Assembly: GCF_000260985.4 (NCBI RefSeq)
Contig: NC_017857.3
Location: 2,232,001 to 2,296,000, forward strand
Direction: 5' to 3'
DNA: 64,000 nucleotides
DNA from: Methylophaga nitratireducenticrescens
Lineage (GTDB): Bacteria; Pseudomonadota; Gammaproteobacteria; Nitrosococcales; Methylophagaceae
Under the pieces are notes generated by a model. The model was not told the DNA's origin and ran no database searches. It worked only from the letters and a program-made list of their open reading frames with translations. Within the stretch, counting starts at the first letter, position 1. Every line of letters begins with the position of its first letter. The position numbers and the translations under genes were made by a program. This document shows positions 37,388-42,542 of this stretch, in pieces.

Positions 37388-38605
37388 ATGCCACACTCAC
37401 ATGCCATCATATTATTGATTTTGATTATCCTGAGTGCCATCAGCGGTGTCTTGTTTGGCTGGTTTTTCGGTGACCTGTCATTACAAATCGGTTGGCTGGG
37501 TGACTTATTTCTCAATGCGTTGAAAATGGTGATTATCCCGCTGATTGTAGCGTCTGTTATCAGCGGTATTGGTGCGCTTGGCGATATCCGTAAACTGGGA
37601 CGCTTAGGTGGCTCCACCCTTCTCTATTATGCTTTAACAACTGCTACGGCAGTATTCATCGGCTTGGTAGTCGTAAACATCATCCAGCCCGGTGCAGGTA
37701 TTGAACTAGGTGATGCCACGGTTCCAGAGCGTATTTTGGAAAAACAGGGAACCGGCGCATCTGATATTGTGATGTCGTTGATCTCACCAAATCTATTCGC
37801 CTCTGCCACTGAGATGCAGTTATTACCGCTTATAGTTTTTGCCATATTATTTGCGATGGCGTTAACAACGATTGGCGAACGTTCCAAACCCGTCTTTGCC
37901 GTTTTTGATGGAATTAATGAAGCCATGATGAAACTGGTGATATGGATAATGTATTTTGCGCCGATCGGTATTTTCGCTTTGATTGCTGCTCGACTGGGAC
38001 TGGCCGGTGGAGGCGATGCACTGTTCCGGGAAATTCAGGCAGTGGGTTGGCATGTAGTCACCGTGTTGACAGGGCTTCTCATCCACTTTTGTTTTCTTCT
38101 TTTACTCTTGCAACTGATTGCTGGAAAAGGCTTTAGCTACTTACTGGGTATGAGTCGAGCCCTGGTGACCGGCTTTGGTACAGCCAGTTCAACAGCCACA
38201 CTTCCACTTACGATGGAAAATGCACGTGAAAATAAAGTAAGTGATAAAGCCATCAAATTTGTTTTGCCACTGGGCAGTACGGTCAATATGGATGGCACAG
38301 CACTCTATGAAGCTGCTGCAGTGTTATTTATAGCTCAGGCCTATGGCATTGATTTGACGATGACCCAACAAATTATTGTGTTTATTACGGCAACGCTTGC
38401 GGCCATCGGCGCTGCAGGAATCCCTGAAGCAGGGCTGGTCACCATGGTCATCGTGCTTAGTGCGGTAGGTTTGCCATTGGATGGTATTGCACTGTTACTG
38501 GCAGTGGACTGGTTTCTGGATCGATTCCGTACTGTAGTCAATATCTGGGGTGACAGTGTTGGAGCCAAAGTCATTGATACGTTAGTTATAAAAAAGGCGC
38601 GTTAA
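37388..38605 (+). CDS. Dicarboxylate/amino acid:cation symporter (DAACS family)
   Basis: 405 residues with about eight membrane helices and two re-entrant loops. The family motifs are the serine-rich loop GFGTASSTATLPLTMENA and NMDGTALYEAAAVLFIAQAY followed by GIPEAGLVTMVIVLSAVGLP. Imports glutamate, aspartate or C4-dicarboxylates with sodium or protons; which one is not clear. The last codons (AAA AAG GCG CGT TAA) form the left half of a terminator now split by the hipBA insertion. Confidence 0.9.
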   Translation: MPHSHAIILLILIILSAISGVLFGWFFGDLSLQIGWLGDLFLNALKMVIIPLIVASVISGIGALGDIRKLGRLGGSTLLYYALTTATAVFIGLVVVNIIQPGAGIELGDATVPERILEKQGTGASDIVMSLISPNLFASATEMQLLPLIVFAILFAMALTTIGERSKPVFAVFDGINEAMMKLVIWIMYFAPIGIFALIAARLGLAGGGDALFREIQAVGWHVVTVLTGLLIHFCFLLLLLQLIAGKGFSYLLGMSRALVTGFGTASSTATLPLTMENARENKVSDKAIKFVLPLGSTVNMDGTALYEAAAVLFIAQAYGIDLTMTQQIIVFITATLAAIGAAGIPEAGLVTMVIVLSAVGLPLDGIALLLAVDWFLDRFRTVVNIWGDSVGAKVIDTLVIKKAR

Positions 38606-38651
38606 AGCCTAGGCGTTAAATTTAAAGCGTGGCTAGACCCAAGAGTTTTAC

Positions 38652-38670
38652 GCGTCACCAATGGTGGCGC
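38652..38670 (+). terminator. Terminator inside the left end of the hipBA element
   Basis: GCG-t-CACC / GGTG-g-CGC hairpin with a three-base loop and tail ATTTTTAT. It would insulate hipBA from readthrough out of the symporter gene, whose own terminator is disrupted. Confidence 0.6.
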
Positions 38671-38725
38671 ATTTTTATATCAAATAGACAGAATATCCGA
38701 GATAAATGAGCCTCTTTGGTTAGAC

Positions 38726-38777
38726 TTGCATCATTGATAATGTTTGATATGCTATGCATTTATATACATCTATGCAT
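38726..38777 (+). promoter_or_regulatory. hipBA promoter with repeated CTATGCAT boxes
   Basis: -35 TTGCAT (38726-38731), 16-bp spacer, -10 TATGCT (38748-38753). Two identical palindromic-core boxes, CTATGCAT at 38752-38759 and 38770-38777, are spaced 18 bp, so they lie on nearly the same face of the helix. One overlaps the -10. They are good candidates for HipB binding and autorepression. Confidence 0.55.
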
Positions 38778-38789
38778 GGTAAATTAATC

Positions 38790-39113
38790 ATGAGCAAGAA
38801 AAACGAAAGAGGAAAATCCCCCGTTCTCCTACCTGCGCGGGAGCGGATCCTGCAGCAGATGGGGGAAAACATCATGCTGGCCAGAAAGCGCCGTAATCTC
38901 ACCATGGAAATGGTCGCTGAGCGTGCTGATACAACGCGCCTGACCGTTTCTAATATTGAGAAGGGGAGTCCGTCTGTCGCCATTGGTCATTACCTGAATG
39001 TGCTTGCCGTACTTCATCAAGAGCAGGATTTTCTGAAGCTGGCGGCGGATGACGAGCTAGGGCGGAAGCTTGCTGATATTAAGCTCAAAAACACAAGGAT
39101 CGCGACTAAATGA
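38790..39113 (+). CDS. hipB: HipB-like antitoxin / XRE repressor
   Basis: 107 residues from the ATG at 38790 (MSKKNERGKSPV); an upstream ATG at 38754 would read through the operator boxes and is unlikely. Residues about 22-80 are a helix-turn-helix of the Cro/CI type (RILQQMGENIMLARKRRNLT, MEMVAERADTTRLTVSNIEK). HipB proteins bind and neutralise the HipA kinase and repress the operon. The stop overlaps the hipA start (ATGA), the usual coupling. Confidence 0.88.
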   Translation: MSKKNERGKSPVLLPARERILQQMGENIMLARKRRNLTMEMVAERADTTRLTVSNIEKGSPSVAIGHYLNVLAVLHQEQDFLKLAADDELGRKLADIKLKNTRIATK

Positions 39114-40495
39114 AAAGAATAAAAGTTTATGCTGACTGGCTAGGACTGCCTGGCACCATTTTCGTCGGAGAGCTGACGGTTGACGTTGTGAGGGGGAAAG
39201 AAGCCTATCGGTTCAACTATGCCGAAGAATGGCTTGCGTCTCCTCATTCCCTGGAAATCGATCCGGAGCTTTCGCTTTATAAGGGGGATCTGTTCCCCCG
39301 TTCAGGCAATGACAATTTCCGCGCCTTTCTTGATTCTGCCCCTGACCGGTGGGGAAAGTTGCTGATGAAACGTCACGAGGCTATTGATGCAAGACTTGAT
39401 AGCAGGAAAGAGCAGACCTTGTATGAGTCAGATTTCCTGCTGGGCGTGCATGACAGTTACAGGATGGGTGGGTTTCGTTACAAGTTGGATAATGAAGGGC
39501 CTTTCTTGAGTGACAATGACTCATTGGCTGCGCCCCATGTCGCCAGCCTGGGAGAGCTGGAGCATGCAGCAAAGATTGTAGAGGAGAATAAATCCATTCC
39601 TTCTGATGAAGAACTGGCTGAGTATCGCCGCTGGCTGAACATGCTGATCGCACCCGGCTCTTCACTGGGTGGCGCGAGGCCCAAAGCCTGCGTTCTTGAT
39701 GAGGATGGGTATTGGATTGCCAAGTTTCCCAGCAAGATGGATGAGTACGATGTTGGCGCCTGGGAATATGTGACCGGTCAGATAGCTACCGAAGCTGGCC
39801 TTGATATGAGCCTGGGTGATGTAAAAAAGTTTACGAGTCAGTATTCAACGTATCTTTCAAAGCGGTTTGACCGCACGTTACGTGAGGGTTCACTGGTTCG
39901 TGTTCACTTCGCTTCGGCGATAACCCAGCTTGGCTATTACGATGACAAAGCCGATCAGGGCGGCGGTTATTTTCAATCACCTGATCCTGAACATCACCAT
40001 CCAGCAAGCTATCTGGAACTTGCTGCCTTTATCAGCCGTTATGGGGTGAACATTGAGCCCGATCTGGCTGAGTTGTTCCGACGTATAGTCTTCAACGTGG
40101 CTGTAAAAAATACGGATGATCACTTAAGAAATCATGGGTTTTTACATGACGGATCCGGCTGGAAGCTGTCTCCGGCCTATGACATTAACCCAAATCCGGA
40201 AGGAACAGGGCTTAGTCTCAATATCAGTGAGACAAATAATGAACTCAACCTAGGGCTTGTAATCGACCAGGCAAAACATTTTAGGCTGTCTGAAGGTGAT
40301 GCCATCGAGATCGTTCATCAGGTGGTTGCTACCACAGCTCGATACGAAGAGTTTGCCAGGCATGCCGGCCTTGATAGCCAGGAAATAAGGTTAATGCAGC
40401 GGGCTTTCATGATGCCGGATGAGGCTGATGAGCAGTTAGCTAATTATGGCTACTCGCGCAGCCCATCCAGATCTGCACCAACAAGCCCGAACTGA
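39110..40495 (+). CDS. hipA: HipA-like serine/threonine kinase toxin
   Basis: 461 residues. N-terminal HipA domain (about 1-100), then the kinase core. The P-loop-like SSLGGARPKA (about 184-193), catalytic loop NTDDHLRNHGFL and metal-binding SPAYDINPNP are all intact, so it should be active. E. coli HipA phosphorylates glutamyl-tRNA synthetase, causing growth arrest and persistence; the target here is unknown and could differ. The gene ends before a hairpin at 40514. It looks functional, not decayed. Confidence 0.92.
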   Translation: MKRIKVYADWLGLPGTIFVGELTVDVVRGKEAYRFNYAEEWLASPHSLEIDPELSLYKGDLFPRSGNDNFRAFLDSAPDRWGKLLMKRHEAIDARLDSRKEQTLYESDFLLGVHDSYRMGGFRYKLDNEGPFLSDNDSLAAPHVASLGELEHAAKIVEENKSIPSDEELAEYRRWLNMLIAPGSSLGGARPKACVLDEDGYWIAKFPSKMDEYDVGAWEYVTGQIATEAGLDMSLGDVKKFTSQYSTYLSKRFDRTLREGSLVRVHFASAITQLGYYDDKADQGGGYFQSPDPEHHHPASYLELAAFISRYGVNIEPDLAELFRRIVFNVAVKNTDDHLRNHGFLHDGSGWKLSPAYDINPNPEGTGLSLNISETNNELNLGLVIDQAKHFRLSEGDAIEIVHQVVATTARYEEFARHAGLDSQEIRLMQRAFMMPDEADEQLANYGYSRSPSRSAPTSPN

Positions 40496-40513
40496 CCTTT
40501 GATACATCAAAGC

Positions 40514-40547
40514 AAAAGGCACCTTCAATTATTTGAAGATGCCTTTT
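40514..40547 (+). terminator. Terminator after hipA
   Basis: Long imperfect hairpin AAAAGGCACCTTCAA (40514-40528) pairing with TTTGAAGATGCCTTTT (40532-40547), one mismatch in the stem, followed by CTTTT. Confidence 0.8.
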
Positions 40548-40649
40548 CTTTTAAGAGCCCTTTATAGACTGGACGTTAAGCGTTTATAGCAACACTTTAG
40601 TTTAACGTCTAGCGTTAAAGCGCCTTTTTCAGTAAGTAATATTAGCGAA

Positions 40650-42542
40650 CTACTCTTCTTCGCTTGATGTGACCCGTGATTCATAAATCTCGATGTCGGC
40701 TTCACTCCGTAATGTGTTGAGGAATGCTGCCACTTCGACGCTACCGTTCAGTCTGGTCAGATTGGATACCAATCCATCACGCATTTCAGGCTCTACATCT
40801 TCAACTGAACCCTGTTTCACATCACTTACTGCTATCACAACATAATTACCGTTCTCGGTAGTGAAACCGGCATATTGGGTTGATTCAGCATTAGGTAATC
40901 TAAAGGCTTTGTCGAGGATTTGTGCACTGATGTCCTGACTATCACGTCCATAATATGCGGCTGGCTGCCAGGTATCAGGAAAAACTTCTGTAGCTGATGC
41001 ACCAGATTCTAACTCCTGCAGTCTGGCTTCCCCCTGAATATAGGCTAGATCGCTGGCGCGCTGATAACGAAGCTGCTCGGTAATCGCTGGAGCAACGGAG
41101 TCAAATGGCAGAACAGTCGCTTCAACGTAGCTGTTCTTACGGATGACAACTAATCGAGTATCAGATAACTCTATAACTGGACTGTTAAGCTCCTGATTCA
41201 ATACATCATCTGAAAATGCTGCTTTCACAACTGCAGGGTTTTCAGCAATTCCACTACCTCCACTACGAGTAAATAAACTTGAGGTTTGAATATCCAACGT
41301 TAAACTCTCCGCGGCGATATCCAATGTTTCAGGGTTCTCATAAGTAAGGTTTGCCAGCTCTTCAGCTTTATCATAAAACTGGCGTTCAGCCTGCTGACGT
41401 TTGTATTGCAGCTCAACTTCATCTTTAACATCAGCAAACTCTATATTGCTGGATTGATCAATATCCGTTAACTGAATGATGTGGTAGCCAAACTCCGTTT
41501 TAACCGGTTCAGAGATATCGCCAACATTCTGTAAAGCAAACACTGCCTCTTCAAAAGCCGGTTCCATAACATCACGTTGAATAGCACCTAAATCTCCACC
41601 TGAAGATGCTGAACCAACATCGATTGAATATGTTTTTGCCAGCTCTTCAAAGCTTTGACCTTCTTCAAGTTTGGATTGGATTTCAGCGAGGATCTGTTCT
41701 GCTTCTTCATTATCTTCGATTAAGATATGGCTGGCACGGCGCTGTTCAGGACCAACAAACTGTGACTTATTGTCAACATAATATTGTTGCAGCTGTTCAT
41801 CACTTGCTTTTACTTGTGATGAAATTTCATCAAGTGACAGCTCCAGATAATCGAGTGAAATTTGTTCCGGTGAAGTAAAACTTGATTGGTTTGCATCAAA
41901 GAAACCACGAACATCAGCTTCATCAACTTCTGTTTCATCAAGAAAAGCTTCAAGCTTAACCACACCAAAGGCAATTTTGCGCTGTTGATTTTCCAGTTTT
42001 AATAGCCTTTCTACCTCAACCTGAGAGACCAGCGTGCTGCCTTCAATATTTTGTACCAGCTGCTGCCCCAAAAGATCATCACGCAGACTTGCTTCATAAG
42101 ATGTCGGAGTAAAACCTGCTCTGGCCAGGACCATTTGATATTGTTCACTATCAAATGTGCCATCACGCTGAAATGCGGGAGTTTGTTGGATGAATTGGGC
42201 AATTTGACGGTCACTTATTCGAAGGCCAAGATCATCAACAGCAGAACGAATTAGCTGTTGCTCGATAAGGTCATCCAGAACGACATAACGGATTTCAGCA
42301 TTATCAAACATTTCGGGATTGAATTCTTCGCCCATCATTTCACGCATTTGGTCCCGATAACGCTGGACGGCTTGTAATAATTCCGGCTGAGTGATTTCTT
42401 CACCATTAATTTCAGCCACGATGGTGTCACTTGGTCCGGAGACATAAGAGTTCACCCCCCAGAGTGCAAACGGAATGCTGATTAAGCCAACAATAAACCA
42501 AGCAATCCAACCTTGGGCGCGATCACGTATGAAATGCAACAT
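40650..42542 (-). CDS. ppiD: Periplasmic folding chaperone PpiD
   Basis: 630 residues. One N-terminal membrane helix (GWIAWFIVGLISIPFALWGV) anchors it to the inner membrane; a SurA-like chaperone domain follows, then a parvulin-type domain (about 265-360: RRASHILIEDNEEAEQIL, SASSGGDLGAIQRDVMEPAF, VKTEFGYHIIQLTDI). PpiD helps newly exported outer-membrane proteins leave the Sec channel. It follows hupB and two tRNA genes, the common gammaproteobacterial order. Confidence 0.94.
   Translation of the reverse strand: MLHFIRDRAQGWIAWFIVGLISIPFALWGVNSYVSGPSDTIVAEINGEEITQPELLQAVQRYRDQMREMMGEEFNPEMFDNAEIRYVVLDDLIEQQLIRSAVDDLGLRISDRQIAQFIQQTPAFQRDGTFDSEQYQMVLARAGFTPTSYEASLRDDLLGQQLVQNIEGSTLVSQVEVERLLKLENQQRKIAFGVVKLEAFLDETEVDEADVRGFFDANQSSFTSPEQISLDYLELSLDEISSQVKASDEQLQQYYVDNKSQFVGPEQRRASHILIEDNEEAEQILAEIQSKLEEGQSFEELAKTYSIDVGSASSGGDLGAIQRDVMEPAFEEAVFALQNVGDISEPVKTEFGYHIIQLTDIDQSSNIEFADVKDEVELQYKRQQAERQFYDKAEELANLTYENPETLDIAAESLTLDIQTSSLFTRSGGSGIAENPAVVKAAFSDDVLNQELNSPVIELSDTRLVVIRKNSYVEATVLPFDSVAPAITEQLRYQRASDLAYIQGEARLQELESGASATEVFPDTWQPAAYYGRDSQDISAQILDKAFRLPNAESTQYAGFTTENGNYVVIAVSDVKQGSVEDVEPEMRDGLVSNLTRLNGSVEVAAFLNTLRSEADIEIYESRVTSSEEE

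Follow-up and report, generated by a model that had tools for sequence, protein, structure and literature searches.

A predicted hipBA toxin–antitoxin module of Methylophaga nitratireducenticrescens lies in a 2,004-bp mobile element without a transposase gene (38609..40612, plus strand) that is inserted in the loop of a terminator between two convergent genes. Positions refer to the window, the stretch of 64,000 nucleotides that was analysed, which corresponds to 2,232,001–2,296,000 of the single-contig 3.135-Mb genome (G000; in our labels, G### is a genome, L### a locus and C## a contig within a genome). Mobile insertion cassettes (MICs) are transposase-less derivatives of insertion sequences (ISs) that carry passenger genes, and we propose, with a probability of roughly three in four, that the hipBA element is such a cassette, moved in trans by a transposase family that targets terminator loops. 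We observed the insertion and its ends, the target duplication, uninterrupted sites in relatives, ends shared with transposase-bearing elements, and a bias of the insertions toward terminators.

The element is bounded by imperfect inverted ends, CTAGGCGTTAAATTTAAAGCGTGGCTA on the left (27 nt, 38609..38635, plus strand) and CTAGACGTTAAACTAAAGTGTTGCTA on the right (26 nt, 40587..40612, minus strand), whose alignment, with one gap, has 22 matches in 26 positions; in 2,000 shuffled pairs this score was never reached. The direct repeat common to both sides is 10 bp, GCGTTAAAGC (38599–38608 and 40612–40621), within which the alignment of the inverted ends singles out the 9-bp CGTTAAAGC (38600..38608 and 40613..40621) as the likely target duplication and 38609–40612 as the element. 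An earlier note on this DNA, made by a model from the sequence alone, had described a 9-bp direct repeat and inverted ends matching at 21 of 26 positions. The repeat is real and the ends are indeed imperfectly inverted, but the copy that it gave, GCGTTAAAG, is offset by one base from the likely duplication. Around the element lie the two arms of a split bidirectional terminator, AAAAAGGCGC (38591..38600) and GCGCCTTTTT (40620..40629). Removal of the insert and one repeat yields AAAAAGGCGC(GTTAAA)GCGCCTTTTT, the perfect hairpin whose restoration by excision the note had predicted. In a search of the whole genome that allowed one mismatch, the end motif CTAGRCGTTAAAY occurred without mismatch at two places, which are the element's own two ends.

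Could this resemblance to a split hairpin have arisen by chance, from unrelated repeats that happen to flank an ancestral hipBA locus? Any 2-kb stretch contains many short repeats. However, relatives hold the uninterrupted site that the note had suggested looking for. The left neighbour of the element, a symporter-family gene, was found in 22 of 24 same-genus genomes (the own genome included), and a perfect hairpin of 9–18 bp lies within 150 bp in 19 of the 21 other loci; of the remaining two, L065 has none by this test and L073 could not be assessed. At the insertion site of the closest relatives, G021 (L053) and G017 (L055), the sequence reads AAAAAGGCGCT(ATAA)AGCGCCTTTTT. The transporter of G021 is 98% identical to that of the window at the protein level, and a search of G021 and G017 for hipA gave no match at E ≤ 0.001. 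These results indicate that the insertion is real and younger than the split from G021; in that sense the note was right to call it recent, as it was to place hipBA inside a terminator loop. The loops differ at two bases (GTTAAA in the window, TATAAA in G021), so that the exact ancestral loop is one that we infer. The relatives' intact sites refute a chance arrangement, to which we assign next to no probability, given also a second element of the same anatomy and the uniqueness of the end motif in the genome.

The second element was found in G031, which belongs to another genus of the same family. Its hipA is 82% identical to that of the window over residues 1–221 and 63% over residues 217–458, and lies in two parts on separate contigs, with an interruption between the parts. 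One contig has the sequence AAAAAAAGCCC-AGTTACACT-CAAGGCATTACCCTAAAGTGTGG and the other, towards secF, reads CCACACCTTAAGGTAATGCCTTG-AGTTACACT-GGGCTTTTTTT; the shared repeat and the matching arms suggest that both contigs border one insertion. The G031 element splits a terminator beside secF and has its own 9-bp duplication, AGTTACACT; a relative of the window element, with end letters of its own, therefore landed in another terminator. Among 29 other secF loci, 20 show a perfect stem of 8 bp or more within 150 bp, 7 show none by this test and 2 could not be assessed. Furthermore, at the edge of a G417 contig lies an end of a hipBA-type element whose end letters are those of the G417 transposon described below (the likeness of the inner sequence was judged by eye); a hipA search of the G417 assembly found none.

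Two side observations concern these elements. The G031 hipA is interrupted by a further insertion (L106 6150–6227, L105 4300–4362), and the contig ends there resemble IS ends, which we take to be IS21-like. The right ends of both hipBA elements (window 40569–40612; L105 3402–3470) contain the end motif once more, further inside and inverted, and each right end could therefore fold on itself.

Which transposase could have moved these elements? A pattern built from both kinds of end was searched, with up to three mismatches, in 57 genomes of the window's family. The matches were mostly scattered and single, and inverted pairs were found at G417:C19, G005:C4 and G006:C84. Besides a 601-aa zinc-ribbon protein, the G005 element (5,938 bp) has genes for an Eco57I-type methylase and a BsuBI/PstI-type restriction enzyme, together with one for a 220-aa protein that gave no matches. 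The G417 element (5,758 bp) encodes a zinc-ribbon protein 54% identical to that of G005, an N6 methylase whose best matches are type IIG enzymes, and a specificity protein. The G006 element (1,081 bp), whose repeats are imperfect, encodes a haemolysin-III-related protein. The right end of the window element aligns over 99 bp with the cargo-side end of the G005 element at a score of 121 (maximum of 2,000 shuffles, 44), and at 75 when the outer 30 bp are left out (shuffle maximum, 27); the right end of the G031 element scores 54 against the cargo-side end of the G417 element (shuffle maximum, 25). The earlier note had also suggested looking for the same ends together with a transposase elsewhere in the genome. 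Ends of this kind do occur together with a transposase-like gene, though in relatives and not in the own genome.

The window element thus resembles MICs in that inverted transposon ends enclose passenger genes and no transposase gene, a target duplication lies at borders whose uninterrupted site is found in relatives, and autonomous kin with matching ends exist (G005 and G417, in relatives rather than in the own genome). It differs from MICs in its terminator-loop target, its toxin–antitoxin passenger, and a parent transposase that falls outside the families named by the libraries searched. On the other hand, the match of the window's right 99 bp to the cargo-side end of a full transposon would also be expected if a full transposon with hipBA as cargo had landed here and then lost its transposase gene in place. 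Yet the two hipBA elements that lack a transposase gene were inserted at separate sites, each with a duplication of its own, and G417 shows one end of a third. Transposase loss could have occurred independently in each, which is a less simple account, and we consider such a deletion derivative improbable.

Where do the members of this family land? We rebuilt 15 insertion sites from paired ends and scored a site as a terminator when it showed a perfect stem of 9 bp or more, including at least 3 G–C pairs, whose axis was no more than 5 bp from the axis of the duplication; control positions came from the window and the element loci. The test was passed at 10 of the 15 sites (the window, G031, G417, G005, a P. 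aeruginosa plasmid, a Polaromonas plasmid, G386, G443 C1, G670 and G524), compared with 77 of 53,674 control positions. Eight of these ten sites are centred within 0.5 bp (p = 6e-6 if offsets of up to 5 bp are equally likely), with a half-base offset only where an odd-length duplication meets an even loop; the two off-centre stems are those of P. aeruginosa (3.5 bp) and G386 (2.5 bp). Without the Polaromonas site, 9 of 14 sites pass and 7 of the 9 are centred (p = 3e-5). An exact duplication of 9 or 10 bp is present at 13 of the 15 sites; that of Rhizobium, where there is no terminator, is the exact 10-bp repeat GCTGATCCCC.

Of the 22 phylum-level matches, 13 loci were examined for ends, as were 6 of the 131 plasmid records. 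Loci for which paired ends with a duplication were not found, or of which only one side was present, were left out: L182 of Acidovorax (both flanks resemble terminator halves, with no duplication), L187 and L188 of G032 (ends not resolved), L170/L189 on contig C40 of G417 (one side), L212 of Enterococcus, L217 and L218 (a different inverted repeat, with no duplication seen), L195–L201 and L203 (no ends), L204–L206 (fragments), and L174, L177 and L178.

The bias toward terminators could also reflect survivorship: the transposase would insert with little specificity, and its copies would last only where they do no harm, as in a terminator between two convergent genes. All five sites that were assessed in the window's family do lie between convergent genes, where harm would be least, and 3 of the 15 sites are not terminators. 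However, selection for harmlessness leaves the centring on the hairpin axis unexplained, whether the Polaromonas site is counted or not, and we regard this account as unlikely. A site-specific recombination of the integron-cassette or tyrosine-recombinase kind, with the 9-bp repeat as the crossover core, appears less probable still than a deletion derivative. The repeat in its GCGTTAAAG register does resemble a stretch within the element's own ends (GCGTTAAAT), and each end is partly self-complementary. But an integron gene cassette has a constant crossover core and an attC at one end only, whereas here, with no attC model run, inverted ends lie on both sides, the duplicated repeat varies between insertions, a constant core is absent from the 15 sites, and the linked gene encodes a transposase-type zinc ribbon.

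Several observations weigh against a family that targets terminators and moves the hipBA cassette in trans. The Marinobacter, Rhizobium and G775 sites (3 of 15) are not terminators, and those of G006 and G443 C20 are decayed or weak; consequently, the targeting is strong but not universal. The duplications at G006 and Polaromonas are imperfect. Past the outer 30 bp, the G031–G417 match is at the level of chance (33, against a shuffle maximum of 35; 1 of 2,000 reached it), so that only the ends are clearly shared there. Finally, the own genome has no homologue of the ~600-aa protein at E ≤ 1e-6.

The ~600-aa zinc-ribbon protein is presumably the transposase. The G005 protein had no match in Pfam at E ≤ 0.1, and the G417 protein matched the InsA zinc ribbon below the cut-off. 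The IS1 transposase model gave 33.5 bits for the G005 protein (L168) and 30.7 bits for the G417 protein (L167), neither reaching the cut-off of 100. The IS1/IS1595 zinc-binding domain model gave 33.2 bits for L168 (cut-off 28) and 25.4 bits, below the cut-off, for L167, and an IS256-type zinc-binding domain model was passed by the G005 protein and not by that of G417. Among nine aligned homologues, eight show the weak IS1-model match (best E 1.9e-10) and seven match the IS1/IS1595-type zinc-binding domain at E ≤ 0.01. D235, E497 and D529 are invariant in the nine sequences; however, the catalytic residues are a guess, and the putative second acid, D401, is replaced by E in one of them. IS1 duplicates 8–9 bp of its target. 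The family resembles IS1 in its zinc ribbon followed by the weak IS1-model match (residues 131–225), and the 9–10-bp duplications agree with IS1 in size. It differs in the length of the protein (~600 aa, compared with a model of ~200 positions), in the 33.5 bits against a cut-off of 100, in its end sequence, and in its large cargo.

Homologues of the protein were found in 4 of the 57 family genomes (G005, G417 and two others, one of them short), in 4 of 369 genomes of the class and, when the alignment served as query, in 17 of 398 genomes of the phylum. Two further queries each gave 131 plasmid records, of which 90 are from Enterococcus. Where annotations were listed, they were 'hypothetical protein', 'insertion element protein', none or, in two records, 'lactate dehydrogenase'. 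Viral scans with the transposase alignment and with L181 gave no relatives, and nothing close to the L181 element was found in the E. coli collection; among phage records, a 24%-identical homologue is present in two staphylococcal phages (OP328421, OP328422). The homologue in Gram-positive plasmids and in these phages is a distant one (24–26% identical). On an Enterococcus plasmid (L212 4812–6764), it adjoins a trimethoprim-resistance gene, and no paired ends were found there. In one other family (f185; L195–L201 and L203), a homologue of ~490–525 aa corresponds to the N-terminal two thirds of the transposase and lies behind the same upstream gene, presumably deoD, in all eight loci, with no element ends found. 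This shorter homologue looks like a domesticated, vertically kept copy.

The ends of the element bring hairpins of their own. Just inside the left end, the terminator scan found a terminator-like hairpin, GCGTCACCAATGGTGGCGC followed by ATTTTT (38652..38670, plus strand), and a strong hairpin lies after hipA inside the right end (40509..40552), terminator-like on the minus strand (40547–40514). The left one faces transcripts from the symporter-family gene, and the right one faces those from the ppiD-like gene. Folding of the right region is exceptional (z −4.85 for 40490–40560 on the plus strand; z −7.27 for 40495–40640 on the minus strand), and the whole scan found 4 sites compared with 1.9 expected in shuffles; folding of the left region (38586–38700) is unexceptional (z −1.44), which counts against a terminator at that end. 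Comparable hairpins were seen in the G005 ends, by eye and in the alignment. If these inner hairpins do terminate transcription, they would replace the stop signal that the insertion broke and insulate the convergent neighbours.

How might such a preference arise? Full members of the family would encode the ~600-aa zinc-ribbon transposase, and the window cassette would retain the transposon ends only, around hipBA. The transposase would make cuts staggered by 9 bp in its target (repeats of 10 bp are also seen), and its preferred target would be the centre of an intrinsic terminator hairpin; the element would then come to lie in the loop, between the two arms of the terminator. Such a target has two-fold symmetry and would suit a complex that is itself two-fold symmetric, and the enzyme may recognize cruciform DNA or the symmetry of the terminator. 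The copy in the window was most probably mobilized in trans by a related transposase, which the own genome lacks. We lean toward a broader proposal, with less assurance than for the cassette itself: an undescribed transposase family would recognize intrinsic terminators by their two-fold symmetry, in the form of cruciform or palindromic DNA, and insert at the dyad, using stop signals as safe sites. Its elements would bring replacement terminators and often restriction–modification or toxin–antitoxin genes that hinder their loss, and terminators between convergent genes would become reservoirs for them.

Insertion into terminator hairpins has a precedent in staphylococci. IS1272 and TnSha1 of the IS1182 family insert into hairpins, several of them confirmed terminators, without a primary sequence consensus, and part of the stem is deleted with no duplication made (PMC4923244). 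The family described here shares the terminator hairpins with these elements. It differs in that both arms are kept, 9–10 bp are duplicated and the insertion lies at the loop, so that it falls outside the IS1272 type as characterized there. Similarly, a report on MITEAba12 assigns that element to its parent, ISAba12, by shared ends and 9-bp duplications, and describes it as ~113 bp long and without genes, in AT-rich targets with no identifiable sequence trend, with ends GGCTTTGTTGC... (PMC6382973). By that description, the window element is likewise transposase-less, with a 9-bp duplication and a parent traced by its ends, and unlike MITEAba12 it carries genes, has different ends and has a terminator as its target. 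Among the titles and abstract openings listed in our literature search, none concerned a hipBA cassette or a family of this kind that inserts into terminator loops with duplication, though an earlier description may exist.

In the window, the left neighbour is a sodium:dicarboxylate symporter family gene (37388..38605, plus strand) and the right neighbour a gene for a PpiD-like peptidylprolyl isomerase (40650..42542, minus strand), the two being convergent. The stop codon of the symporter-family gene (38603–38605) falls within both the terminator loop and the target duplication; it was therefore copied, and the gene was left whole by the insertion. The module has the expected order, a helix–turn–helix antitoxin gene followed by a gene for a HipA_C-domain kinase. 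The hipB-like gene (38754..39113, plus strand) matches HTH_3 at 29.7 bits (cut-off 23), and a later ATG near 38790 is equally likely as its start. The hipA-like gene (39110..40495, plus strand) encodes 461 aa and matches HipA_C at 148.4 bits (cut-off 30.5; E 3.1e-43), with three HipA-type motifs present by sequence. The note's term "persistence module" agrees with this domain and these motifs, as a label that rests on homology.

The inverted ends of the window element (score 46) had no near equal at 38 other hipA loci. Lower-scoring inverted matches occur at L012 (37) and L092 (30); at L012, the two copies of a 21-nt inverted repeat that differ by one mismatch (AAAAGACGCCCGACCCCTTTT) lie on either side of hipA, near position 498 and ~130 bp past the end of the open frame. 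The same-genus hipBA relatives L004–L006 (52% identical) have surroundings that differ from those of the window, and L006 has a second HipA-like frame immediately upstream. A 15-nt match to the left end near hipBA of L004 and L005 lies within another open frame and was put down to chance. A hipA homology search of genome contigs found one distant locus, and that of viral contigs found none.

What do the elements carry? Restriction–modification genes are present in 6 of the 15: in addition to G005 and G417, these are G443 C1 (a D12 methylase and a NotI-like enzyme), G670 (a IIG-like enzyme with a specificity protein), G524 (an N6/N4 methylase with a partner of no assigned family) and G443 C20 (Eco57I-type and BsuBI/PstI-type). 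The best reading is that restriction–modification is the commonest cargo of the family. hipBA is the cargo in 2 of the 15. The Polaromonas element (10.1 kb) encodes an AAA/Toprim protein, an HNH protein and a HepT/nucleotidyltransferase pair; the G006, G386 and G775 elements carry other single genes, that of G386 being hydrolase-like (a Hydrolase_4 match below the cut-off) and that of G775 encoding 259 aa. The copies in P. aeruginosa, Marinobacter and Rhizobium, at 1.9–2.0 kb, have space for little beyond the transposase.

If the proposal is correct, the terminator loop would represent a new rule of target choice in transposition, in which the target is duplicated rather than deleted, and a protein now annotated as 'hypothetical protein' or 'insertion element protein' would acquire a meaning. 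It would offer a system for insertion at safe sites that is open to direct testing, and would help to explain how restriction–modification and toxin–antitoxin genes spread without disturbing their neighbours.

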